Assembly: GCA_950295325.1 (NCBI GenBank)
Contig: OX485808.1
Span: forward strand, 39,078,527-39,142,526
Source of the DNA: Polytrichum commune
Taxonomy: Eukaryota; Streptophyta; Polytrichopsida; Polytrichales; Polytrichaceae
Direction: 5' to 3'
DNA: 64,000 nt
Positions 47,858-63,613 of this stretch are shown piece by piece; the first letter of the stretch is position 1, and each line of letters starts with the position of its first letter. The translations under genes were made by a program, and so were the position numbers. The notes under the pieces are model-generated. The model saw nothing but the letters and a program-made list of their open reading frames with translations. It ran no database searches and had not been told where the DNA came from.

Positions 47858-50759
47858 CTATCTACCTAGCTGCATCCAGTTGGGTTCGTAGGGAACGATG
47901 ACCTGATTTGCAGGACCCTTGTAAACCATGTCGATCAACGGGCGATTCGACCACGTCCCAAGTACAACATCATACGTGATCGTGGGCGTAATCCTCTTCC
48001 TCCGGTCCATCCGAACCATACCGATAAAGTGCTGGCCGGCTCGATCACTCCACGCACGCCACGCACACGAGCCCCGCAAGTTGTAATGAAAGCCTTTGAT
48101 TTCGACTTGCGTGAGTTCACGAAACTCCGTGGCCGTGTCTGCGTCCCCGTCGCCTCGGAGGATCGCGTAGGTCCACGTGTGGGTGTTGGGCACGTCCGAG
48201 CGCGACCAAGGCACCACCGCATATAGCACTCGCGAGCACACAAGCAGCGTTCCTGCGGCTTCGAGAAGATTGACGTACTGGGACATGTTGCAGTATTCGA
48301 CGGGTCGAAAGGCGCGGCTGAAAGCTTCGACCCACACGGGTGCTGCCCACACATCTTTCTCCAGGTCGAACCTCACGATCCCGACCTCGAATTTGCGCTC
48401 GTTGGGTAGGAACTCCTGGAACAAAACGATCAGGAACCTGCAGCCGGCCCCCCGGGGTGGTCATGATGGTCAAGGATGTTTAAGGGCACCGTGATTGGCA
48501 TCAGAAGTCTATTTCATAAATATAAGTTACGCATATACACATACACGTGCATAAAGGAGTTGGCACTATACCTGCTGCTGCCGCTGGTAATGTTGAGGAT
48601 TCGGTAATGTGGCTGATTGGGTTTCGATGACAACCTCTAGGAGTCGGAGGTGGAAGAGTAGACGCCCACATGGAGGTCGTTGTTGTTAGCATTGGTCTTG
48701 CTCACGAAGACAAGATTGAAAGAGCCAGCGGCTTTGTTAACTGTGAGGATGCACTTGCTATTTTGAGCAAACAGGTCGTGGAAGTGAGTAGGTGGACAAG
48801 GCAGTTCGCGCCAGCTCCTGTTGAGAGGATTGTAGACACAAAACAGTTCTGCCATTGCGACCCTTTTGTCGGACGCCCACCTTCTCGCAATGCAAATGAG
48901 ACCTGCGTCTCCTGCAACCAGCTCCAGATAACTCGAAGGCCGTCGTTCGCCCGAGGGCACAACCAGTCCTGCAATTAAACAAACATGAGCACAGGGTACT
49001 CAATTAATAGGATTTGGATTCAAGAATTATAGCTGATTATGATTTATAGCTCATTTTATGAAACATAAAGTTGTTATGTGTGATATATAAGGTTACCAAA
49101 TGTACAATTGGGGTATAATCAGAAACCATATTCTTATTCCACAAGGTCCAAAGAACCCTGTTTTATTGTATCTTACGACTCACGCTCAAGTCATAAAAAC
49201 ATTCTTTTCATTATGTTTCTTTCACCATCCGTTGCACGTAACGGTGCACATGGATGCCAAGCTTTTCAAATGCTAAGATATATCAACGCATTCATCTTTT
49301 TGAACTCGTCCTTGGAGCAAAACCAAAATTTTCATTCGATCTCAATGAGACTTAATTTTGTATGGAGGGTAAGCCTCTGTCACTAGTGGATCCCAAGTGT
49401 GTGTGGTTCATCCAAGTACTGGATATCATATACGAGGAGCCCTGCTATAACTTGTAGTAAGGCAACATTTGTATTATATTGAACGCGATGTTCACCATGT
49501 CGCGAGGACCACTTGCTACGGTCTATGTTTGTGATGCTTGTGTCCATTAAAGATCTACACATCAACGAGATCTGAGATGGAAAACACTTAGCATCAAGTA
49601 TGATATTTAGTGTCACATACACTATTTGCAAAGTGCCTAACCTAGATGCCTAGAGGTCTCAAAGTGTCACGCTAATTGCCACTATGATATTATTCGTTGA
49701 CATATAACTGTGACTTTCTGAAGTGCAAAAAATATTTATATTATAACATTTAGTGTAGCACATTGGGATACTTGAGATGATAGGTGTGTTTTGATATGCA
49801 AAGGGAAAAAAATTCAATTGAGCATAGTTATGACAAGTGTCATGTGTCTACATTTTAATAAGCAAGAGGAAAAAATTCTTGACTATGATACCAATGCCAA
49901 GTATCATTTTTGTACACTTTATTCACCTTTTAATCCATTATGTAACATAGGAATACACCTCATAGCCATTTTGCTAGCATGCTCATGCCGACATTTTAGG
50001 TTAGCGCACTTGAATGCCAAGCCTCATGAGGTGACACTAATGATGATTCAGATTGTTGATTATGAGCGTAACGATAGGCCTCAAAACAAAGTAAATAACA
50101 CTATTATAAATCTAACATTACATATCATAAACGTTGTACCATAATAACCGAGAGACCCTGAGGTAACAAAAAGAGAAAAGCTCAGGAGGCAAAAATAAAC
50201 ATAGGATAGATATTAATTCATGAAAGAAAGATTTTAACCAACAGTGTCATCACAAAAGGAAAATTATAGCTTTAGTTGCTTAGCAACATAGTTGTTAGTA
50301 TAAACCTGTGTTGATCATGGCTTCCGCCATGAAACTCCTCCGCTGGGCAACGCCTTGGAATGGGAAGAATGACAGTTTGTGCCACACCTGCTTGCTGCAA
50401 TCTAACAACATAGGCTGCAAGATGATCAAACTATTGTTGCTTTTCGATGTCTCATGATGGTGCATCCGAAGAAATCCTTTGTTGGTGCTTCCATCCACCT
50501 CCACCCCTCGGATCGACAACGAGTATTCCTTCTCCCTGCACAAGAACTCGAACACCATGTTGTTGGTAGCCATGTCGATTGATCGAGCTCGGAATAGCTC
50601 TGGAATGGGTAGCTTGGCTATCACGTGCAGGACCAACTCTTTGGGCAGTTGCTTCCAAATGCATTCTTTCATCTCCTCTTCACTTGCAGCATTATGGTTC
50701 ATATTTTTTTTCCCTCTTCCTCCTCCTTCTCGTACTTGAAGAAGAGCCTCTCGTAACAT
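47858..50759 (-). pseudogene. F-box/Kelch-like protein gene with an in-frame stop
   Basis: Three exons on the minus strand, 50759-50306, 48968-48572 and 48437-47858, join in phase at both junctions. Exon 1 starts an F-box (WKQLPKELVLHVIAKLPIPELFRARS), but the usual continuation CKRWN is missing and replaced by unrelated residues. Exons 2 and 3 are like the C-terminal beta-propeller part of plant F-box/Kelch proteins (FCVYNPLNRSWRELPCPP; FLIVLFQEFLPNERKFEVG). In exon 2, after VYSSTSDS, the frame reads TAG (48626-48624), where a Trp codon (TGG) would be expected; the frame then stays open through RLSSKPNQPHYRILNITSGSSR to the donor, and exon 3 is intact. Such proteins recruit substrates to SCF ubiquitin ligases. 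It is either a young pseudogene, a truncated protein of ~270 residues, or I have mis-set a donor. Met at 50702 is an alternative start. Confidence 0.65.
49587..49765 (+). mobile_element. Degenerate MITE family A copy in F-box intron
   Basis: gtatgatatttagtgtcaca on the left and aacatttagtgtagcac on the right are family-A termini. It lies within the ~1.3 kb intron of the F-box gene. Confidence 0.4.
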
Positions 50760-52055
50760 TTGATGTTTGAGAATTCTGATGATTAACGGCGTTCAATAAT
50801 TCTGAATGTGTCATCCACATCTTCTTGGCTAATTTGCAACTGTAGTGGCTCCGATGATGGTTATGCTGATGATGGATATAACCTTCAAATTGCCTGAATT
50901 TTTTGTATGTTGATTTTAATCTGCACATCGTGGTCTCACTCCTGAATATTAAGTCATGAAAGCTTGTTAACAAACTTTTGAAAAAGTGAATAAAATCAAT
51001 GAAGGCTAATTAAGCATGAAAATAATGTCTATGCACCTTTTTAATTTGCAAGGTAGATTGCAAGCTACCTACCCCGAGAACTATGATTGCTCCCAAGCAA
51101 CAATATATTTAACATTGTATTATTCTATGTATCCGCAATCGAGTTCATAATCTATTATTTTTTTTGCCTCGGTCAGATCATTGGCTTCAAATATCCGCCT
51201 ATTTTTCATCTTCAAGCCTCAGAAGATGTTTGTGTGGTGAATTATTACATGAGTCTGCACAATGTGGATCAACTGTATAGAGGCCCTGACCCAAAGAGCA
51301 AGAAAAAACTTCAAACTGCCATTAGAAAATTACAAGGAACAACCCTTTCACAAATGTACTTTTAAACCAAGGTCATCTAGAAAAAAAATAAAAATTAGTT
51401 GATGATTTTTTAAAACATTTGAAAATAATAGCAACAGAAGTAGAATCACTGGAGATGCATAATTAAGTAACTGATTTGGAACCAGTACCTTAATCTGCAC
51501 GCAAATCTCGGCAAGGTGCTGATCACAGGACTACCCTGATCCAAAAAGTCCAGAGAGAGTAAGAATGGACGTGAAGCTCCAGAAGACCACTATATATAGA
51601 GTTGTTGTTTCTTAAGAGCACGGAGTTGAGACCAAAATGTGCCGGTAGTTGAGTTCAAAGCAAATTTAATCTGTTGTGTATTAAAGTAGAATTGAACTGA
51701 AGAAGAATTATGAACTGGTACCTTGCGAGAGCGGTTATTAGAGATTAATCAGTAACACTCAGCATCCATCCCCAGCTACCCTCCAAGCGTGGGTGAAAGT
51801 AAGACGTTGTGATGTCGATATTGGATGCTAACAATGCCATCGATCTCAAACTTCGAGAAGAATCATTCATTCTCACCTGCCGATAAAACAGTCTGTGAAC
51901 CTCGACAGTAGGAATGTTGCCAGCCCTCGAGAGTGATCGACGAGGGCGTCGTTGTGACCATAATGAGCAAGTAATTATAAATCATCAAGTCAGAACTATC
52001 TCCCCGGCAATCAGTCTCGAGGTCTGGGTTCTCGTCAACCATATATCGTTGTTTC
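50760..52055. other. Divergent intergenic region between F-box gene and secreted-protein gene
   Basis: No supported gene. A TATATATA core at 51591-51598 could serve as a TATA element for the minus-strand F-box gene (0.8 kb upstream of its first ATG). A plus-strand frame at 51087-51365 has no recognisable relatives. Confidence 0.4.
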
Positions 52056-52063
52056 TATATAAG
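52056..52063 (+). promoter_or_regulatory. Putative TATA box for the secreted-protein gene
   Basis: TATATAAG precedes a stretch that opens a short frame (Met at 52070 or 52085) ending in a good donor, AAG|GTGAGC, at 52189/52190. A first exon, coding or leader, at about 52085-52189 is therefore likely. Confidence 0.35.
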
Positions 52064-52319
52064 CTTGGTATGGAGTCTTCTCCAATGTCTTCTTCGGGAG
52101 CCCAGGGTGATGATCTGCAAGGTGGTCATGTCAGTTTTGTTAGCAAGTTTTCGCAGAGGTACTCTTTAGGGTTAAGCCGTCGCAGTAAGGTGAGCTTCCT
52201 TCCTCTCTATGTTACTCGGGGTTAATCCAAACATTACTGTTTTGTCCATGCTTGCCATGTTTAGTATGATTGTGGTCGCTATAATTCTGGAATCTGGAGT
52301 TTGTAATATCTTTACAGTG

Positions 52320-53436
52320 GTGGTTGGAGGATGCATTAAAGTTGTTGTGAAAGAAGTAACTGTGATGAGTTCTTGATGTGTGACTTGATTAGGGCACGAG
52401 GTTGAAGCGACTAGTGTGTGGATAGAATTTATTTTTTGCCCAGACATTTGGTCATGGATGTCAATTCTAAACTTACAATCAAGAATCCATACCATGTCCA
52501 TGTTTGTCATGTTTGATATGATTGAGGATGCTACTTCAAGGATCTGCAGTTTCTGAATTCTTTACAGTAGTGGTCGGAGGAAGCATCTAGCTAGGTTGTT
52601 GGAAAAGCAGTGATGAATTGCCTGTGTATTACTTGATTAGTGGTCGAGGTTGAAGCGACTAGTGCATATGTGAGTAAAGTTTCTCTAATGTGACATTAAC
52701 TCTAATTGATAAAGTTATGGGTCATGAATGTCAAGTCCAAACTTATAGTTAAGTATGAATCTTGTATTTGCTTTCTCAGGGATTTAGCAACAACATCCAA
52801 CTGGAGGATGCATCTAGGTTGTCGGGAAAGCATCGGTGAATTGTCTTTGTATGAACTCGTTGATTAAGGCTCAAGGTTGAAGCGACTACTGTGTGTGGGT
52901 AGAATTTCTTTCTGTGACATTAGCTCTAATTGATATAGTTATGGATCATGCATGTCAATTCCGAACTCAAAAACATGAATCCCGTGTTTGCTTTCTCAGG
53001 AATTAGCAGCGACATGCAATTGGGGGTGATCAATGCATCTAGGTCATGGGAAAGCAGTGGTGAAATATCTTCGTATGACTTGATTAGGGCTAAATGTTGA
53101 AGCAACTACCAAGTGTGTGCGTAGAGTTTCTTTAATTCTGTGACATTAGCTCTACTTGACAAAGTCATGGGTCATGGAAGTCGGGTCCACACTCACAGTT
53201 ATGAATCTCGTGTTTGCTATCTCAAGGTATCAGCAGCGACATCCATTTGGAGGATGTATCTAGGTTGTTGGGCAAGCAGTGATGAATTGTCTATGTATGA
53301 CTCGATTAGGGCTCGTGATTGAATCAACTAGAGCATGTGTGGGTTGAGTTTCTTTAATGTGACATAAACTCTAATTGATAAAGATGTGGGTCATGGATGT
53401 CAATTCCAACAACTGACCCTCGTGTTTGCTTTCTCA
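52320..53436 (+). repeat. ~225 bp tandem repeat, 4-5 units, each ending like a splice acceptor
   Basis: The units begin near 52320 (degenerate), 52560, 52785, 53001 and 53226. Each carries ggaggatgcatctaggttgt, aagcagtgatgaattgtc, ttgaagcgactag, tctaattgataaag, gggtcatggatgtcaa, and, in all but the first, ends in (t)tgctttctcag followed by (g)gaattagcagcgacat. The last acceptor-like end, at 53436, precedes the ATG at 53464. Confidence 0.85.
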
Positions 53437-53463
53437 GGGAATTAGCAGCGACATTTAAAAGAT

Positions 53464-53895
53464 ATGGCTTCGAGAAGCAACGCAAACCTGGCTACGGCCA
53501 CTGCGTGCGCAGCAGCACTGCTTTTGATGCTGCTAGCAACGATGGTGGGAGGCGCACATTGCTTCGGACAAACAAGCATCCACCAAGAGCTTACCACGGA
53601 CTGCAGATCGGTCATGTTCGATGACAGGTTCGCCAGGTTTAGGACAGAGACCATACACCCACGAGGGATTGCCTACTGGGAATACCAGACAACTTTTTCG
53701 CAGTACTACCGCGTCGCCATGCTTGCTTCCGCGGAACAACCCCCCAAGGGCAAAACCATTGAAGTGTGGTCCCGCCGAGATTGGCCAGGAGTCACCGACC
53801 CAACCACGGTGTGGAAAGTGAATGTGACGGGGTTGTACAGCATGAATCTGAAAACAAACCAGTGGGTGTTTGCAGGCTTCTGGGATTTGTTCTGA
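53464..53895 (+). CDS. Small secreted protein of unknown function
   Basis: A single open frame of 143 residues starts at the ATG at 53464, 27 bases after an acceptor-like ttgctttctcag. Residues 1-33 are a clear signal peptide with an ALLLMLLATMVGG core and likely cleavage before FGQTS. The mature part (~110 residues) has one Cys (TDCRS), many aromatic residues (AYWEYQTTFSQYYRV; KTNQWVFAGFWDLF) and one N-glycosylation site (NVT). Codon use is GC-richer than its surroundings, which supports real coding. I do not recognise the family; the size and aromatic C-terminus recall small secreted plant proteins such as S-protein homologues, but the conserved cysteines of that family are missing. An upstream exon at 52070-52189 is probably leader. 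Confidence 0.65.
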   Translation: MASRSNANLATATACAAALLLMLLATMVGGAHCFGQTSIHQELTTDCRSVMFDDRFARFRTETIHPRGIAYWEYQTTFSQYYRVAMLASAEQPPKGKTIEVWSRRDWPGVTDPTTVWKVNVTGLYSMNLKTNQWVFAGFWDLF

Positions 53896-54737
53896 TCAGT
53901 TTCATGTAGTAAATATCTGGTCTGCCGGCCTCGAGAGATCACCAAGTTCACAGATTCACATCAACAGCGTAGTAACTTACTCGGAGACACATGATGCTTG
54001 TGCCATTTTGGGGAATTGAGTCACAGTATCTATCATCCCTTGTAGAGCATAATCGTGATGAATCATTCTTGCAATGTAATATGCTAAGTTCAGGAACTGA
54101 ACTGTGGACTAATATACTGTTTATGGTTCCCAGCAACTGGGTTTGGACCAGGGGGTTGGTGAATCACATGATTGCAAACAATAGAAGTAAGAATCACCTA
54201 AATGTTTGTGCTGTTGCTGATTTGTTTGTGCTTAGATTCTGTGCCCGTGTGACGATGTCCTCCTATAGGCTGCATGTTCAATCTGATTCTTCAAATCTGA
54301 ACCCCTGTCACATTGAATTGTGACTGGGCAACACATATACTTCTAGGTCAATTGTCGGGTATTATATTATTCTTTAGATTGTCTCTTACAGTTATATAAT
54401 TGAGTCAATTTCAAGTTTGAGATCATGTACATCCACTTGGTGGTCTACTGTAGAGATATATATTTTTTGGAACGAACTCCAGACAACATAAGAGAGTCCA
54501 TGTGCATCATCCACATATACTTAAACATCTTAAAGAACAAATGAACCAAGGCAAACGGATGAAACCTTCCCACGAAGTAATTGCTGGCATGGTAAATATC
54601 ATCTCTGAGCAAGTCCTATGATAGTCATGATGATCATTATGTGACTGACTGATTAATTCTCTCTTGTATAGTATGAATGACTATACATGGCAGTCCTTCA
54701 GGATTGGTCAAAACTATTGAGATCTAGAGACTAAAAC
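53896..54737. other. Convergent intergenic region
   Basis: Lies between the stop of the secreted-protein gene and the stop of the minus-strand CLPT-like gene. It holds presumably both 3' UTRs; no other structure seen. Confidence 0.5.
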
Positions 54738-57647
54738 CTACTGAACTAATTGTTGGTACTGGCCCTTTGCACTAGCTGGCTGTTTCATCTGCAGATATTG
54801 GAAAAATCAAAAATTCAGAAATTAAATATGAAAACGACCTGCTAAAGAGGAAAGACTGCTAAAGAGGCATAGAGCATACACACTACCTAAGCATATATTT
54901 TAACATCCCAAGTCCATAGACAGAATCGTAGCTGTGAAAAAAACTTATCAAAAACACGTATGAAGTTGACCAACAACTTTTGAGTTCAAGCCAAGTTTGC
55001 AGGTGCACTCTTGAAAGTTGAACTCCAATAGCAACTGAATGTATAAACCACTGACATCTCGAATGTGAAGGCTCCTTTGTAGAAGAATTAACAAATTTAA
55101 AAATCTAATCAATATAAACAGAATGTATAATCCACACCCAAAAATGTGTAAGAGATACTTACAGTTGCACCAAGTTCAGCAATTTTTTCATCATTTATGC
55201 CAAGGTTTTCAAGTACTTTCTGACCAGCTGAGCCCTTCTGGGCCCAGATTCCAAGCACCATCATGGTTGTACTCAGCTCGTTGCCAGATGCTCCTTCTGC
55301 AGAAATCACCAAGGCCACAACTTGTTGAGTCCACTTTCAAGCTACAGCTCATAGGTTTGTGCATTTTCTACCCCAGTGCACAGACCTTGTTAAAGCTTGA
55401 GGATAATTGCATAAGGGAGTGGATGGAGAGTAAAGGGCTCAGTGAAGATATAACCAATATCATATTTAACTAGACATGGACCTCCATCCTTGACAATGCA
55501 AGCATCTGTAGATATCACGAACATGGTACATTGGCCTTTCCTTAGCCTTGAATAGTCCACTTTTATGATGAATCAGATTTATATGTGTATACTTGCAATC
55601 CATCAGCTTGAAGATGCAAATGCTAAATGCCAGGATTTTTTGGACCATGTATAGTATTTAAATTAAAGCCCAAAGCCAAAAACTCTAAACCCTAAACCCT
55701 AAACTTTGCACAGGTTTAGGAAATATAATAGTTGCTTCCCTGATACTCTACAGGAGACTAAAAGAGTGAACAATTACCAGGTCTATTCTTTGTGTCAATG
55801 GCCCAATTGAGAGCCTTCTGAGCTGAGGTAGTAAGAGGTGGATGCTCCGGACTAAAAAAGTACATGTCAGCTTTGCCAAGCAGCTTAATGATCTCATCCT
55901 TCGCACCAAACAAGGTTACACCATTCTTCCGCAAAAACCTTGCTGCTTCACTTGTGCCTGTATTGCAGTGCCTAATTTGTTTCATTCACTGTCATCTGTG
56001 ATGACCTTCACGACGTGAGCAGCATAAAGATGTACCCTACTCTAGTATCATTGCTATATCCAAACCAACACATGGATCTAATTTCATACTTATACAATAC
56101 TTGAATTTGTCCGAGTTCCAAATTATTGGCCCCTTGGAACAACGTGCCCATGAACATAGACACATGTATTGGTGTGGCACAATTCACAACACGTTCAAAT
56201 TGTTCAAACTGACAGCATTTGCACACAATCTTGCGAAACTTGCATGTAGTGACGGTGGAGTTCTGTATACTGCATTTCCTAGATTGCTTGATCTCACCTT
56301 CCGTTAAAATTCCTAAAAGGAGTGACTCTGTTCCAGTTGTGGGGTACTTCAACTTGCGGGCCTCCAGCTCAGCCATGCTATATGACTTAACAGCTCTCGC
56401 CTCCCATCTGCCAAACTCCACTGTCCAACAATAAGAGTCCAAAACTTTGCACATTGCTCATACCAATGTAACCAAAGAGCCTGTCAAAGAAAAAAGTAAC
56501 GAACCCTAACAATAGATATGACTCTTCCGGTAACAGTCTGAATTAGTGATCGCTGCGAACTCTTCATTTCCCCTTATATCTTAAGATCCACTATTCAACA
56601 AGTAGCCCTCATACTCATAATCTGCCTTCACATTTACAAGCATATAGCATGGGAACACTTCGCAGCTATATTTGTATGTACTTTGAGGCAACTCTTACTT
56701 TCCAAGAAAGAAAATGTGAATTCAGCAGCATACATCTAAAGTACTTACGGGATATCTTGCCCAGGCGTCATGGTTTCTGTGTCCCTGCACCCATATCGAA
56801 AAACAGCAAGTTACATACTTTGCCAGTAGTTTTACCAGTACACTACAATTAATCAATGCATCTACCTTCACCACCACCACAGCTCTATCAAAACTCACTA
56901 TAGCTTCACTTAACTGCTAAATCTTTTGGCTGTCACTAAAATTCTCTTGAACTTGAGCAGAAGAATAATACTACGAACTGTGAAACAAGCCACGGATGTA
57001 TACTAGTCCTACGATATTATAAATCTTGAACGTCGGGCGCCAAGGCACTTTTCCTCTATCACATCCTTAAAACAAATTCTCCCAGGCAAGACAATGCATT
57101 ATCTAGACTAAGAGAAGAAGATAAGCCCATGACAGTCGGAATGACATATCAGCCGTAATGCCATTTATCCAACCAATGCAACAGTAGTTGAGTTTCTTCT
57201 AATCCCACTCCCATTTACAAGAATTGCTCAGGATAATCAAACCTTACCACACTGTAGGCCTATTTCCACCACCGATTTAGCAAGAGCCTCCCCCATCCTC
57301 TCTGATAACAACACCATGGCCATCCTTAAAGCCCTAACAAGTGGAACCTCGCCGCTTCTAAAACGTAGTAACTCTTTTATGAGCTAGACAAATCGAGATT
57401 GATTTTGTGATTCCTATCCCACATACCCTGATGGCAACACCATGGCGACCACGACACCACGCCTCCTTGAAACCCTAGCGAGTGAGACCTGGTGCAATTC
57501 CGGCGATATGCTGCTGCTCCACCGCAGCTGCCGCCGCCTGGGTGCTAGGCTAATGGAGCCGTTTCTACATGAAATTTGCGGAGAGGTGGCCCCCTTGCTC
57601 TGCGAAGCTGCCAGCAGGTGGCGGGAGAGAGTTGTCGCCATAGCCAT
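54738..57647 (-). CDS. CLPT1: CLPT-like chloroplast Clp protease accessory subunit
   Basis: Five exons on the minus strand, 57647-57427, 56407-56298, 55957-55778, 55296-55163 and 54788-54738, join in phase to give 231 residues (Arabidopsis CLPT1 is ~238). The first ~65 residues are Ser/Arg-rich, a chloroplast transit peptide. The mature part is the Clp N-domain fold: WEARAVKSYSMAELEARKLK, YPTTGTESLLLGILTEG, TSEAARFLRKNGVTL, IKLLGKADMYFFSPEHPPLT, SAQKALNWAID, and NELSTTMMVLGIWAQKGSAG, LENLGINDEK. LLGKADMYFFSPEHPPLT is a CLPT signature. CLPT proteins bind and stabilise the plastid ClpPR core. The small last exon (16 residues) is the least certain part. Met at 57641 is an alternative start. It diverges from tRNA-Trp, 250 bases away. 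Confidence 0.88.
55683..55705 (+). repeat. Telomere-like telobox repeats in CLPT intron
   Basis: Three consecutive copies of the plant telomere unit type (ctctaaa ccctaaa ccctaaa ct) occur in the intron between the exons at 55778 and 55296. Short interstitial telomere-like (telobox) motifs are common in plant genes and may bind regulatory proteins. Confidence 0.7.
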
Positions 57648-57899
57648 CCGATTCTCTGCAACGGAAACACAGAAACACGAAACGGCACAAGAGACGCTCC
57701 AGATTACACTGTGAAGCTGATGCGCTTGACCTCCCTTCGTGAACGGATGAGGATGGATGAAGTTGTTTTGGCTTTCTTTTTCGGAAAGGAAATAATGTTC
57801 TCGTTGTTGGATGAAGATTTCCAGGAGATTTAAGGACTTCGAAACCTTAAAATATGCAGAAAACGTTATATATGAATATAGCACACATGTAATCACTGG

Positions 57900-57971
57900 G
57901 GATCCGTGGCGCAATGGTAGCGCGTCTGACTCCAGATCAGAAGGTTGCGTGTTCGATTCACGTCGGGTTCA
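57900..57971 (+). tRNA. trnW-CCA: tRNA-Trp (CCA)
   Basis: 72 nt cloverleaf: acceptor stem GGATCCG/CGGGTTC with G-U pairs allowed, D arm with GCGCAATGGTAGCGC, anticodon stem TCTGA/TCAGA around loop CTCCAGA (anticodon CCA), T arm GCGTG-TTCGATT-CACGT type, discriminator A at 57971. CCA is not encoded and no intron is present, as expected for a nuclear gene. Internal A box (TGGCGCAATGG) and B box (GTTCGATTC) are intact; a T5 run ~25 bases downstream can terminate polymerase III. It decodes UGG. Confidence 0.95.
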
Positions 57972-58401
57972 ACATCCCGAATTACGCCCCGTACAACTTT
58001 TTCGTTTTTTCATTTTTTACCATTAAAATACATTGTCACCGAAAGTAATTACTGATGTTTTCTTGGGGAAATGTAGATTGGTGATATGACCCCAAAAAAA
58101 TGACCATATGAATTGTTGATACCTAATTATGTTGTGTGTCATGCAAAAAAACAACATGATTCTAAATCAAATTTCTCAAGCATTTCCTCAAGCATTTCCT
58201 CAAGCATTTCCTCATTGTTAAGAGTCCAGCTAGACTTGAACCATGTCATCATATTTCCAGCAAGATGTTGTTGATAAAGGGCACTGTGATCATTGATGGA
58301 ATTCTTACAACAAGTGGGGACACAACAATTGTAATAATGATCATCAAGTTGCTAAGTCTCAAATTATTTGTGGAATACAATTAAGTCATATATTTTGTAG
58401 C
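57972..58401. other. Intergenic spacer with short 12-base repeat
   Basis: Polymerase III terminator (T5 near 57997-58001) followed by AT-rich DNA. A 12-base unit, ctcaagcatttc, is repeated three times at about 58175-58210. The rest is probably the 3' UTR of the minus-strand Ulp1-TPR gene. Confidence 0.5.
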
Positions 58402-61400
58402 TCATGGGCTATATACATCTCCAGAAAAACATTGTAAACGTTGTATATAACCAATAACTGCTGCATCCAAATCTTCTAATGCCACTTCAAGTTGACCTAA
58501 TTTTCCCTTGACATATCCTCTCAAGAATAATATTTGTGGATCAGAAGCATTTAGTGTGTCCACCATATCCAAGTCTTGCAAGGCTCCTTCAAAATCTTCC
58601 CATTTGCATCTAATGAGTGCCCTTCTATGTAGTGTGATAGAGTTTCCAGGTTCCAAAAAATTTGCTTCATTTAGATCATCCAATGCCTCTCTAGCTTGAT
58701 CCACTAAGTGTCTAACATACCCTCTCCAAGATAGCACTCCTGGATCATTAGGATATTGTTTATTCACCGTATGTAAGTCTTGTAAGGCACCATCAAAATC
58801 ACCCATCATGCACTTCACATTTGCTCTCCTATGAATTGTGACCGTTTTTTCTGGTTCCAATAAATGTGCGGCATTCAAGTCTTCTAGTGCATCTTCAAAT
58901 TGGTGCAACATTCCTTTGACATATCCTCTCAATGACAATACTCGCGCATCTAGAGGTCGTAATTTTTCCACCATCTCTAAGTCTTGCAATGCCCCTTCAA
59001 GATCATGCATCATAGCTTTCACGTTTGCTGATCTATAGATTGTTTTGAAACTCTTCTCCAATTCCAATGAGGATGTTGCGACCAAGTCTAGTGAAGCTTC
59101 TACAAAAAACCCCAATCTCCCCATGACATATCCTCTCATGGACAATAATTGTGGATCAAAGGGATGCAATTCATTGATCACATTTAGATCCTCAAGGGCC
59201 AATATGTACATTGCATGGATCATTTTTTTGTCAAGTGTTCTTCTACAAAACAAATTAGGAAAACTTGATTCCAATGAAATTGCAATGTCCAAGTCTGATA
59301 ATGCTGAAGAAACATCACCAATCTTTCGTTTGATATGTCCTCTTAAAGAAATAATTAGAGGATCATTAGGTTGGAAACCATTCGCCATCTCTAAGTCTTG
59401 TAGCGCCCCAACGTAATTGTTGTTGCAACATTTGATAGCTGCCTCTCCTCGCAATGAGAGTGCCAAACTACTTGGTTCTACTGATGTTGAGATGTTCAAG
59501 TCCAAAACTTTGAAGTCTACAAAAAAAACACACACTAGTTCACCACTAACTTCAAATTTTGGGAATGAATAAGAAACATAATGTGGAAATGATGATTGCA
59601 ATCACATTATTATTCTAATATGGAAAGATCTCATTCAAATTATGATCATTAAATTTATCAGTCAATTGAATTGAATTATGACATGAGCTTGACTTGAAAT
59701 CATTTTGCTATGTGTAAGGGTATTTTGAACATAGGGATTCAAACCTACTAGCAAAGAATTTTTTAGCAGGATATCACATGCATTGCCAACACTAGCATGC
59801 AGATAGAGTCTATGTACTCTAATAATATTGCCTTCAATATTTCTTCTGTTATAAATGGCATAACAAAAAGCAAGCTATTTATGCAATGTTCCTTCTTCAT
59901 GAGGCTTGTCAAGTCTCTCGAATCCCACGAGTTTAAAGTTGCATAGTTGATTTGGTGACCCCATAAATGATCGGTCATTTTTAAATCAATGTCTCATTAA
60001 AATCAAGCAACATTATTATGATGATGAAGACCTTTAAGCTAATGAATAAAGGATAAACCAATTATTACCTGTTTGATTGTGATAGAATAGGTGCCTTGAT
60101 GTTTTGATAAGCAATTCCGAGCATGCATTGTGATTCTCCAATGTTAAAATCAAATTTGTAATGGTTGCCCGTTTTGTAAGGCAAATTGATGGTGGAAACC
60201 AATCCCTTGTAAGCTACCATACACAAAGCCACCAAATTAAGTTAAAAAATTTCATAATACACTTGAAGAATGGATAAGAAACTAACACAAAAGCTTGTAA
60301 ATCAAATTCATTTAGATAAAATCCTCAAAATATCACAAAGTCTACTTTAAAATGTTAAATAAATTTACGATAGCATATTGATCATGAAAATAAGATTTAA
60401 TTGTTGACTTACAAATGAAAATATTTGAACAGGTGCATCATAGTTGGTTATCGCCTCCAAAAATTGTTCTATGTATTCCAATACAAAAAGTGCACAATCG
60501 GTGTTGTTATCTTGTTGTGGAACCTTCCACCACCAAATGAAATGTGATGGTTAGTGCAATCTAAGACAAATTATGTAGGTATTTGCAATTCAGATTGACA
60601 CAATGAGGCTTGCTTGATGCTAATTACAAATATCAAGTGAAACCGTATAAATGAATCTAATTTCCTTTTGTCAATAGAATTTCAAATAATCTTGAAATTT
60701 GTAATGTATTTAAAGTTTACCTATGCCTCAATTGAGAGAGGCTAACATATTGTGCTAAGTTGCTAGTCACCCACAAAACACCCCAATGAAACAAAATTTA
60801 AATCATAATGAGATGTTTACATATAAAAATATACATAGTATTATTATATCTTACCGGAGGTACAATGAATGGAATTTCACATAACTTTTTTCGAAGAAAC
60901 TCAGGGTAATGTCTTCGAATCCATTCTTGCTCAAGTAGGCTATAAGAGAAACACAACACAATTAGATGGAGATAACACTCTATTAAATCTTGATTCATTC
61001 GTCTCTTTATACTAGATTAAATCACAACATCAAGTGTAATCACACTAAAGCCCAGCTCGTAAGTGAAACAAGGAAAATATTCATCATGATATTACTTATG
61101 CTCAACTAGGTATTACATCCACCTTTGAGTTATACATTTGTTATTAATTTTATCCTTTTAATTGATGACATTACCAAATATTGAATTTTGAATTATTTTC
61201 AATTTTGTTGCCCAACTATAAAAGATGTTAATATTATTATCATGTGTGACTATCATAACATACAAGTCAATATCCAAACCTCCATCTCATAGTTGAAATT
61301 TTTTAAGGTAAATTGGTTATAAGTACACTCTAAACTCCGTTAAATCAACTTCCTTGATGCCACTCTTGAAACCCTAGGGAACGGATGTTCTTAGTTCAAA

Positions 61401-63613
61401 TCTCACTCCTTGTTGTCATGTTTCCCTCCCATATATCACACAATTTGACATTAAAATAAATCACCAAAGAATTTAAACCACACGCTTGCACACATCGCAT
61501 TGTCATCATTATAATTATTCTCATTATTGCAATGTTGCACTTTGTGTTATGCCATAATGTCACATGCTACACAACATTCTATTTTATCACGCATCCATGC
61601 TAATACTACATAGCTCCTCAAGTGCACTTTGGTTGCCACGAGCATGATATTACAAAGTTTAGAGTGTACTTACATTGATGCATCATCAGTGACTTCACAA
61701 GCTATTGACTTTCCAAATATTATGTACAACTTCAAATCAATGATATTCTAATATAAAATATGATTTTAAATGAGGCAATGGAAAAAATACACCCACTATA
61801 AGCAAGAGAACACTAGATTAGAACTAAATTGCATCCACACATTGTCATGATGTGAGGCAGACAAAAATGTAGCTCATAAAATTTGGTTGACTTTCGAAGT
61901 CCAGGAAAGCCAATGAGAAACATTTTTTTATCATATAAATAACATCATACAAATCACTTGCACTTAATATTTAAGGAGATTCTGAGGCAAAGTTTGAAGC
62001 ACCTTACAATCTAATGTGGTTCTCCACATCTGAGTGGAGTTTATTTGGTATTGAATTGAGGTGCAATATCCGAGTTTCCATCTTGTCATTTGTAGTTGAT
62101 GCTACACAATGATGTCAATAATGTGCAATTGTTAAAAAAATTCCTAAGACAACCCACCCATCAAGAAAATCGATTTTGAGCATGTTCATGAAATTTCTTA
62201 TTGAAACAAAACCCTAACCAGTAGATAAACCAAACCAAATACTGGCATGTGTATTAACTCTTCAAGGATATAGAATCTTACATGAAATGAATCTTCCAGG
62301 GTAGCATATTATGATAAGGCTCCAATGCCCTCTGTAAAATCAATGAGATTAGTGCAATTTAACATAAATGTCAGAAAGCCTAAAATCAATTTTTTGAGCA
62401 ATTGGTGAAGACCTGGAGGTTCAAAGAAAATCTAGGGGGAAGTTCTAGTGCGTATTATTTCATATTTCTATATATTGATGAGACCTACATTAGTTTCAAT
62501 TCTTGTGATTGATAAGTAACCTTGTAGTTGTGTTGTAAAACCGGTTCCTTTGATTCAACAAAAAGTGTTGATGATTTATACTACAGAACTTCATAGAATA
62601 ATTTAACAAAACGCAACAATTACTCAACACATCAAATTAAACATGTTTTGAAAATAAAATGTATCAAAACTTGTCATTAAGTAAATATAAAAAAGAAAAC
62701 ACATCCAACAAGTCATGATATAAAGCATAAGTTAATTACCTTAAAATAATTGGAAGAAACACAAAGTCTTGTTGGAAGATGTCAACTTTTATCCAACGCT
62801 TAGCACTTTCAAAATCAACCATATTCAAATTGGCCATTGCAACCTTTGTGAAGAAATAATTGTTGAAGAAATGTAGGCCACGAATTTTTGAGTACTTCTT
62901 CTGAAGGTACCTATAGAATACAGTATACCACCAAAAGACCATGTTATCCATTTCGACTTCTATAGTATGATAAGACTATGCTACATATTCTATGTAGTGT
63001 CATATGGTATTTTATGTCACTGTGGTAACTTTTTTAATGAGTCCACTTCTTATGAATAAGTAAAATTACAAAAATTGTCATCCCAACTTACTTGAATCTG
63101 CTTCATTCAAATTCCAATTATTGAAACAAAGTTTGGTGTATTCTGCATCCTAGTAATTGAGTGTATTCTGCTGAGTAAGTGATAGTAATTGCAACATAGT
63201 AAATCTATAATGCCCAACAAATTTTAACAAGGAAAGACATATAATGCTAGGTTTAAAACTAGTGTTAGGCAGTCTAGAATTATTATTGAGCAAGAAAAAT
63301 AGAATTAGTGACACTAAATACAATATTATATAGTGTAGTGACTTTTAGTATAATATTCCAACATAGTAGTTGCAATCGTGTGAAAAATGTATAGTATGCA
63401 AACTATGTATACTACATGTCAACAAGGTATGACAAATTTTGTCAAAAGTGATGAGAAGAGAACACTCACCTGACATAAAAGTCTACAATGTTGCCATTCA
63501 CAAGCTTCCCAACTTCAAGGCATGTCAAATCATCCTTTGATATAGTGATAGGCTCATTATCATTTGAGGGCCATACGAGCTTTTTAAATTCTCTTTCAGG
63601 CGGGCGGTGAAGC
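58402..63613 (-). CDS. Ulp1/C48 SUMO-type cysteine protease fused to a TPR array (5' end incomplete)
   Basis: Eight minus-strand exons, 63613-63470, 62910-62740, 62331-62282, 62101-62008, 60939-60855, 60523-60413, 60213-60069 and 59516-58402, join in phase at all seven junctions (~638 residues; further 5' exons should lie beyond the window). Exons 1-7 form a Ulp1 domain: KLVWPSNDNEPITISKDDLTC, GNIVDFYVRYLQKK, HFFNNYFFTKV, then catalytic His in GHWSLIIICYP, the acidic position as ILHLNS (Asn instead of Asp), EIPFIVPPVPQQDNNTDC with oxyanion Gln and catalytic Cys, and the DWFPPSICLTKR tail. Exon 8 (~370 residues) is TPR-like, with repeated GALQDLEMV, LSLRGYVKGxL, ALEDLNAAxxLEP modules in a ~70-residue double repeat. 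Ulp1 enzymes process or remove SUMO; TPRs bind proteins, so a targeted deSUMOylase is inferred. An independent TPR gene starting at 59601 is the alternative. Confidence 0.75.
61321..61671. mobile_element. Family E TIR element in the Ulp1-TPR intron
   Basis: 351 bp with perfect 16-base inverted ends AAGTACACTCTAAACT / AGTTTAGAGTGTACTT. It lies in the intron between exons 62101-62008 and 60939-60855. No ORF. A diverged, longer relative lies at 21.75-22.25 kb. Confidence 0.75.

Follow-up and report, generated by a model that had tools for sequence, protein, structure and literature searches.

A SUMO protease that carries its own TPR scaffold was proposed in an earlier note on this DNA, and the question that the locus raises is whether a Peptidase C48 domain and the TPR array lying behind it do in fact belong to one protein. 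The analysis covered a window of 64,000 nucleotides (contig C6:39078527-39142526), whose numbering is used throughout, together with the surrounding genome of 408 Mb in 64 contigs. Contigs C1 to C6 span 78 to 45 Mb, and C7 is at least 41.8 Mb long. The genome's LEAFY locus has the sequence LDYLFDLYEQC, whose Asp is of the moss type, so the plant is probably a moss. As judged from the sequence, the two parts probably make up a single gene: splicing would place a ULP2/SPF-like C48 domain in one frame with an exon that encodes ten TPRs.

The gene model consists of eight exons on the minus strand, running from 63613 down to 58402, which join into one open frame of 637 residues with no internal stop across the 637 spliced codons. 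All seven introns are GT-AG, and their phases (2,2,1,2,0,0,1) match at every junction. The arrangement described in the earlier note, seven C48 exons followed by one large TPR exon, was reproduced in coordinates, strand and phase, and its junction from 60069 to 59516 does read ACA G|AC TTC. The Pfam search that it had suggested found Peptidase_C48 in the spliced product (3.4e-17, residues 39-205, 63.5 bits against a cut-off of 20.7) and then TPR models (TPR_9 at 3e-15 and TPR_1 at 3.5e-10, with TPR_2, TPR_11 and TPR_17 also over cut-off); the approximately ten TPR-like repeats proved to be ten units of 34 residues. The model is incomplete at its 5' end. Exon A opens at an acceptor without an ATG, so the start of the gene lies upstream, outside the window, and the 5' end possibly extends as far as a trihelix domain (see below).

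Table. Features of the C48-TPR locus, in window numbering
Feature	Position	Strand	Remarks
C48 exon A	63470..63613	-	LHRPPEREFKKLVWPSNDNEPITISKDDLTCLEVGKLVNGNIVDFYV; begins at acceptor, one base then codons, without ATG; acceptor phase the same as in L008, by eye
C48 exon B	62740..62910	-	YLQKKYSKIRGLHFFNNYFF...DFVFLPIIL
C48 exon C	62282..62331	-	holds catalytic His; RGHWSLIIICYPG
C48 exon D	62008..62101	-	Asn at catalytic Asp position (ILHLNSIP); aligned to SENP7 ILILDSLK
C48 exon E	60855..60939	-	LLEQEWIRRHYPEFLRKKLCEIPFIVPP
C48 exon F	60413..60523	-	holds Gln and catalytic Cys; VPQQDNNTDCALF
C48 exon G	60069..60213	-	LTRDWFPPSICLTKRATI...; stop 11 codons beyond donor if unspliced
C48/TPR intron	59517..60068	-	552 nt; GC 0.31 (remaining introns of the gene: 0.25-0.32)
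TPR exon	58402..59516	-	linker of 16 residues, then ten TPRs, a short tail and the stop

The C48 domain looks ULP2/SPF-like, not ULP1/ESD4-like. Its best matches among solved structures are to SENP7 (2e-25 and 2.9e-25), followed by SENP5 (2e-14), SENP1 (7e-14), yeast Ulp2 (4e-12), SENP2 (about 3e-11) and yeast Ulp1 (4e-6); SENP6 is absent from this list. Membership of the ULP2/SPF class calls for greater closeness to the SENP6/7 type than to SENP1-3,5/Ulp1, and this is what the SENP7 match at 2e-25 provides. The marks of the ULP1/ESD4 class, a C-terminal catalytic domain that is closest to SENP1-3,5, are both lacking. The earlier assignment to a ULP1/ESD4 type was therefore abandoned, since SENP7 is far ahead of the SENP1-3,5/Ulp1-type matches and the domain is not C-terminal. 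On the class of OTS, the available parts of PMC6117582 and PMC11371177 disagree. Because yeast Ulp2 itself scores below SENP5 and SENP1, the assignment to ULP2 leans mainly on SENP7 and on an SPF-type copy elsewhere on the same contig (L008, C6:40.46 Mb). The boundaries A/B, B/C, E/F and F/G and the opening phase of exon A agree, by eye, between this copy and the window gene, and the frame of L008 continues beyond the point where the window gene has its TPR intron.

This class assignment changes what is odd about the locus. In Arabidopsis SPF1 and SPF2 the catalytic domain is central, according to the available part of PMC6117582, and a C-terminal arm is therefore ordinary in this class, leaving the TPR content of the arm as the only odd feature. 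The part of PMC11371177 available describes a ULP2 group, called SPF-like, that is made up of bryophyte, lycophyte and fern members. The claim of an unusual architecture thus survives for the TPR arm and lapses for the mere presence of sequence after the protease; the domain order is probably unusual, within a class where C-terminal arms are normal. Of the two arms that would flank an internal catalytic domain in this class, the window gene shows the C-terminal one, as TPRs. Upstream of the C48 domain, where an N-terminal arm would lie, the frames of a canonical SPF N-terminal region (L018) give only short and weak matches to the window gene.

How far the gene reaches upstream bears on a larger alternative, namely that it begins with a trihelix DNA-binding domain and continues through the ULP2-like C48 domain into the TPRs, which would make it a chromatin-directed SUMO protease or reader. 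Such a longer gene is possible but on balance doubtful. A trihelix exon does lie at 66521-67310, past the end of the window and on the same strand (Myb_DNA-bind_4, 3.6e-12), and its ORF starts 3.7 kb upstream of exon A. At C5:50.1-50.4 Mb there are five homologous trihelix ORFs, with ULP2-like exons behind four of them and, behind the fifth (L026), a protease that is cut off in exon A. The idea of a trihelix-ULP2-TPR gene arises because a trihelix neighbour is common to four of the five ULP2-like copies on C5; L020 (50.46 Mb), however, has no trihelix match upstream, the 2.7 kb that follow the trihelix copy on C2 show no match to C48, and copies that were duplicated together would preserve the order without any fusion. 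The splice signals are similarly divided. Trihelix exon 1 closes with a phase-1 donor in the copy upstream of the window gene (score 3.91) and in the C2 copy (3.52), but the corresponding C5 site scores less than the 3 needed for listing. These two copies and those on C5 also share a second short exon, in which each has an AG|GT whose phase, 2, is that of exon A, but these donors are weak (2.53, 0.1 and 1.24) and are followed by stops. Small alternative first exons also compete for the role, with a donor of 7.79 in the window gene and, in the C5 copy L022, 30 codons and a donor of 4.06. Finally, trihelix exon 1 of the C5 copies is more divergent (0.052) than the introns behind it (0.016 and 0.021), which counts against the longer gene, and substitution density in the C5 copies failed to separate exons from introns.

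At the other end of the C48 domain, the alternative to a single spliced gene is a pair of neighbours: a ULP2-like protease that stops just past 60069, and a TPR gene with an unrecognised first exon or an internal start. We regard this as unlikely. The donor at 60069 scores 5.38 (donor scores rest on assumed base frequencies), while the next GT within 60213-60030 scores 0.19. The acceptor at 59516, which had been called strong, has 12 T in 18 nt, the highest value within 59700-59440. Counted over the two strands of the window, sites as good as this pair have a density of about 0.2 per kb. The chance that the available stretches would hold both such a donor and such an acceptor, multiplied by 1/3 for phase, is about 2e-4; this is a post hoc figure, with thresholds set at the observed values and rates taken from three donors and two acceptors in 58-64 kb, the tested sites included. 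The GC content of the intron between donor and acceptor also resembles that of the gene's other introns (see the table), which favours the fusion. Counting against a fusion, exon G read through its donor reaches the stop given in the table, and the protease could thus end on its own.

The TPR exon, for its part, has no in-frame ATG from the stop upstream of 59601 until 59388, within TPR1, so that a separate start near 59601, the outcome that the earlier note had singled out as telling against its model, would be without a start codon in that exon. The ATG at 59388 does have G at -3 and +4, as an internal start might, but use of it would truncate TPR1, whose first half fits the repeat. No ATG-started exon with a usable phase-1 donor was found in 60300-59540 (best score 0.08, against 5.38 at 60069), which leaves room for a first exon that is non-coding or more distant. 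The relatives of the array on C3 are stand-alone TPR genes, as the two-gene explanation would lead one to expect; an ATG stands upstream of TPR1 in all eight of their ORFs that were read, and the window exon is without one.

The array that would thus be attached to the C48 domain has a repeat pattern of its own. Its self-identity is 0.258 at a shift of 68 residues against 0.215 at 34, and identity at the DNA level is likewise greater at 204 than at 102 bases; this two-TPR period implies that the array probably grew by pairs. A structure prediction for the TPR exon alone shows helices at TPR spacing, in a model (mean pLDDT 47) too poor for comparison. The genome holds at least 29 TPR matches, one being the window and 22 lying in two clusters on C3, where the nearest relatives among the matches listed have 31-43% identity to the window array. 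The eight C3 ORFs read are open for 798-1027 codons. In four (L009 and L011-L013) the TPRs are followed by a kinase domain (9.1e-50 in the one of the four scanned), and in the others (L010 and L014-L016) by a different C-terminal region; 739 residues of L016 scanned with Pfam gave TPRs and two families below cut-off. A kinase remnant downstream of the window TPR exon was sought in 50001-58500 and not found.

No second C48-TPR locus was found in the genome: the window pair alone, among places listed as lower bounds, has a C48 domain within 20 kb of such TPRs. The proximity check used 48 C48 places, made up of 46 of 51 (five neighbouring exons being merged) and two more, and 15 of the 29 TPR matches, merged by ORF. 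Both lists are lower bounds; the window's own exons are missing from the list of 51 C48 places.

Whether the C48 domain is an active protease is a separate matter. The domain keeps the His (GHWSL), the Cys (TDCALF) and the Gln (VPQQ), but has Asn where the catalytic Asp should stand (LHLNS), and the His-Asp-Cys triad with Gln that is expected of Peptidase C48 is incomplete to that extent. The earlier description as a SUMO-type protease is borne out for homology to C48, which is clear, but it also presumes protease activity, for which the case is less clear. Papain-type proteases use Asn, and a literature search for Ulp1 D531N gave nothing. In the available parts of the sources, His-Asp-Cys is kept in all Arabidopsis ULPs (PMC6117582), the triad is conserved in SPF (PMC11371177) and that of NopD has Asp (PMC11130253), and there is no case of Asn at the catalytic acid position in those of PMC11130253 or PMC4961225. 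With His, Cys and Gln intact and Asp replaced, the domain would be expected to act as an isopeptidase slowly or in an altered way, or else to be a pseudo-protease that binds SUMO; the odds that activity is weakened in this sense are about even.

The same substitution occurs elsewhere in this genome. Asn is found in all four transposon-associated copies (L002-L005), and Asp in each of the four others that were read at this position (L008, L022, L023 and L024; L025 was left out of this count, its exon D having been typed in from the L023 reading). Since Asn is found in five diverged loci, the substitution is probably old. FastTree joins the window C48 domain with L002-L005 at a modest 0.846, from rows that are incomplete and query-anchored. 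L021 was removed from the alignment. Where the automatic matches proved spurious, the exon was blanked: exon E in every paralogue from this genome, exon G in L002-L005, exon F in L002 and exon D in L020. For exon D of both L023 and L025, the sequence read in L023 was entered by hand. DNA matches to the transposon-associated copies include the D/E intron against a flank of L005 (76% over 280 bp and 71% over 83 bp) and 35 bp inside exon B, besides short weak ones. The window gene itself showed no sign of a transposase. That the locus is simply a decaying gene, an SPF-like relic with its catalytic acid lost, a TPR array joined by chance and no functional protein, would suit the Asn, the single locus without an established start and the weak grouping with transposon-associated copies, but is very unlikely given 637 open codons with every splice site intact, a frame kept open although identity has fallen to 33-49% with the C48 relatives that were compared and to 31-43% with the TPR relatives on C3, and the probable age of the Asn.

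Returning to the single C48-TPR gene, its most likely product would be a protein that binds SUMO, is scaffolded by its TPRs and has a protease activity that is weak or altered. Such a gene could have arisen when a TPR array of the family now on C3 came to lie downstream of an SPF-like gene, whose old C-terminal tail gave way to a new intron. The C48 face would bind SUMO or poly-SUMO and the His-Asn-Cys site may cleave slowly, while the TPR solenoid would bind a partner and thereby pick the sumoylated complex that is acted on; a trihelix start, if real, would put the protein on DNA. It is rather unlikely that all three modules are joined, as trihelix, ULP2-like protease with a His-Asn-Cys site and ten-TPR solenoid, with the protease sharing ancestry with a domain of pogo-like transposons of the same genome; if they are, the protein would direct the removal or the reading of SUMO to selected partners and sites on DNA. 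The open-licence literature, surveyed without full texts, yielded no plant C48-TPR protein and no trihelix-SUMO protease that we noticed, and one paper in it, PMC4759884, mentions both Peptidase_C48 and TPR. How the few SUMO proteases choose their substrates is an open question, and a protease-like protein equipped with a TPR scaffold would offer an example from nature of specificity gained by adding a domain. The Asn at the catalytic acid position would likewise test the need for that acid in the ULP2 class.

Three known systems serve for comparison. Ulp1-carrying transposons, the Kaonashi/VANDAL MULEs, have C48 domains in mobile elements (available part of PMC13317346). C48 domains occur in mobile elements here too, and the window domain groups weakly with the transposon-associated copies; however, the elements in this genome are pogo-like (DDE_1), not MULEs. 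With the TPR-kinase and other TPR genes on C3, the window gene shares 34-residue TPRs of one type, at the level of identity given above. Each of those genes consists of one long ORF whose ATG precedes TPR1, half of the eight with a kinase and half with another C-terminal region, whereas the window exon has no start and no kinase and shows the two-TPR period. With SPF1, SPF2 and the SPF-like group, finally, the window gene has in common a SENP7-like C48 domain, exon boundaries that by eye are those of L008, and a catalytic domain that is not C-terminal. It differs from them in the single locus found, in the Asn that takes the place of the catalytic Asp, and in a C-terminal arm made of ten TPRs.

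At five loci (L001 and L022-L025) a trihelix ORF has ULP2-like exons downstream of it, in the same orientation; at L026 the trihelix ORF is present and the protease is cut off. No trihelix match was found at L020, a further ULP2-like copy on contig C5.

Features of the window and of other loci (C1-C5, other contigs; C6, contig of the window)
Feature	Location	Strand	Remark
Frames resembling plastid Clp N-terminal-type protein	window 55758-57645	-	by eye
tRNA-Trp, anticodon CCA	window 57900-57971	+	
L001, trihelix ORF	G000:C6:39144949-39145836		beyond window end
L022-L026, trihelix ORFs	C5:50.10-50.39 Mb		
L002, pogo-like transposase + ULP2-like C48	G000:C4:19974500-19982000		DDE_1 3.2e-23 (Pfam)
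L003, same pair	C2:39124500-39132000		transposase frame homologous to L002
L004, same pair	C1:55224000-55231500		transposase frame homologous to L002
L005, same pair	C4:17034500-17043500		55-residue homologous transposase piece
L009, L011-L013, clustered single-ORF genes	C3:54.72-54.90 Mb		
L010, L014-L016, second TPR group	C3:56.56-56.81 Mb		

In the window, the tRNA gene occupies the gap that separates the next gene on the minus strand from the end of the TPR exon. The single 75-residue piece scanned from the Clp-like frames gave no Pfam match.

Both TPR groups lie on C3. In genes of the first, a protein kinase domain (9.1e-50 in the one gene scanned) comes after a long array of TPRs. Members of the second share a C-terminal region of several hundred residues, to which Pfam gave no name in the scanned part of L016; a stretch of this region resembles AP2 by eye.

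The D/E intron, between C48 exons D and E, is the longest of the window gene. A repeat is common to this intron (61326-61668) and the flank of L005 (5488-6078), with 76% identity over 280 bp.

Among the 150 transposase matches listed, of 269 candidates, a C48 match adjoins the transposase in at least four cases, L002-L005. In each the transposase is upstream of the C48 domain on the same strand, and the C48 domain has Asn where the catalytic Asp is expected. The Ulp1-carrying plant elements described in PMC13317346 are MULEs, whereas the transposase of L002-L005 is pogo-like.
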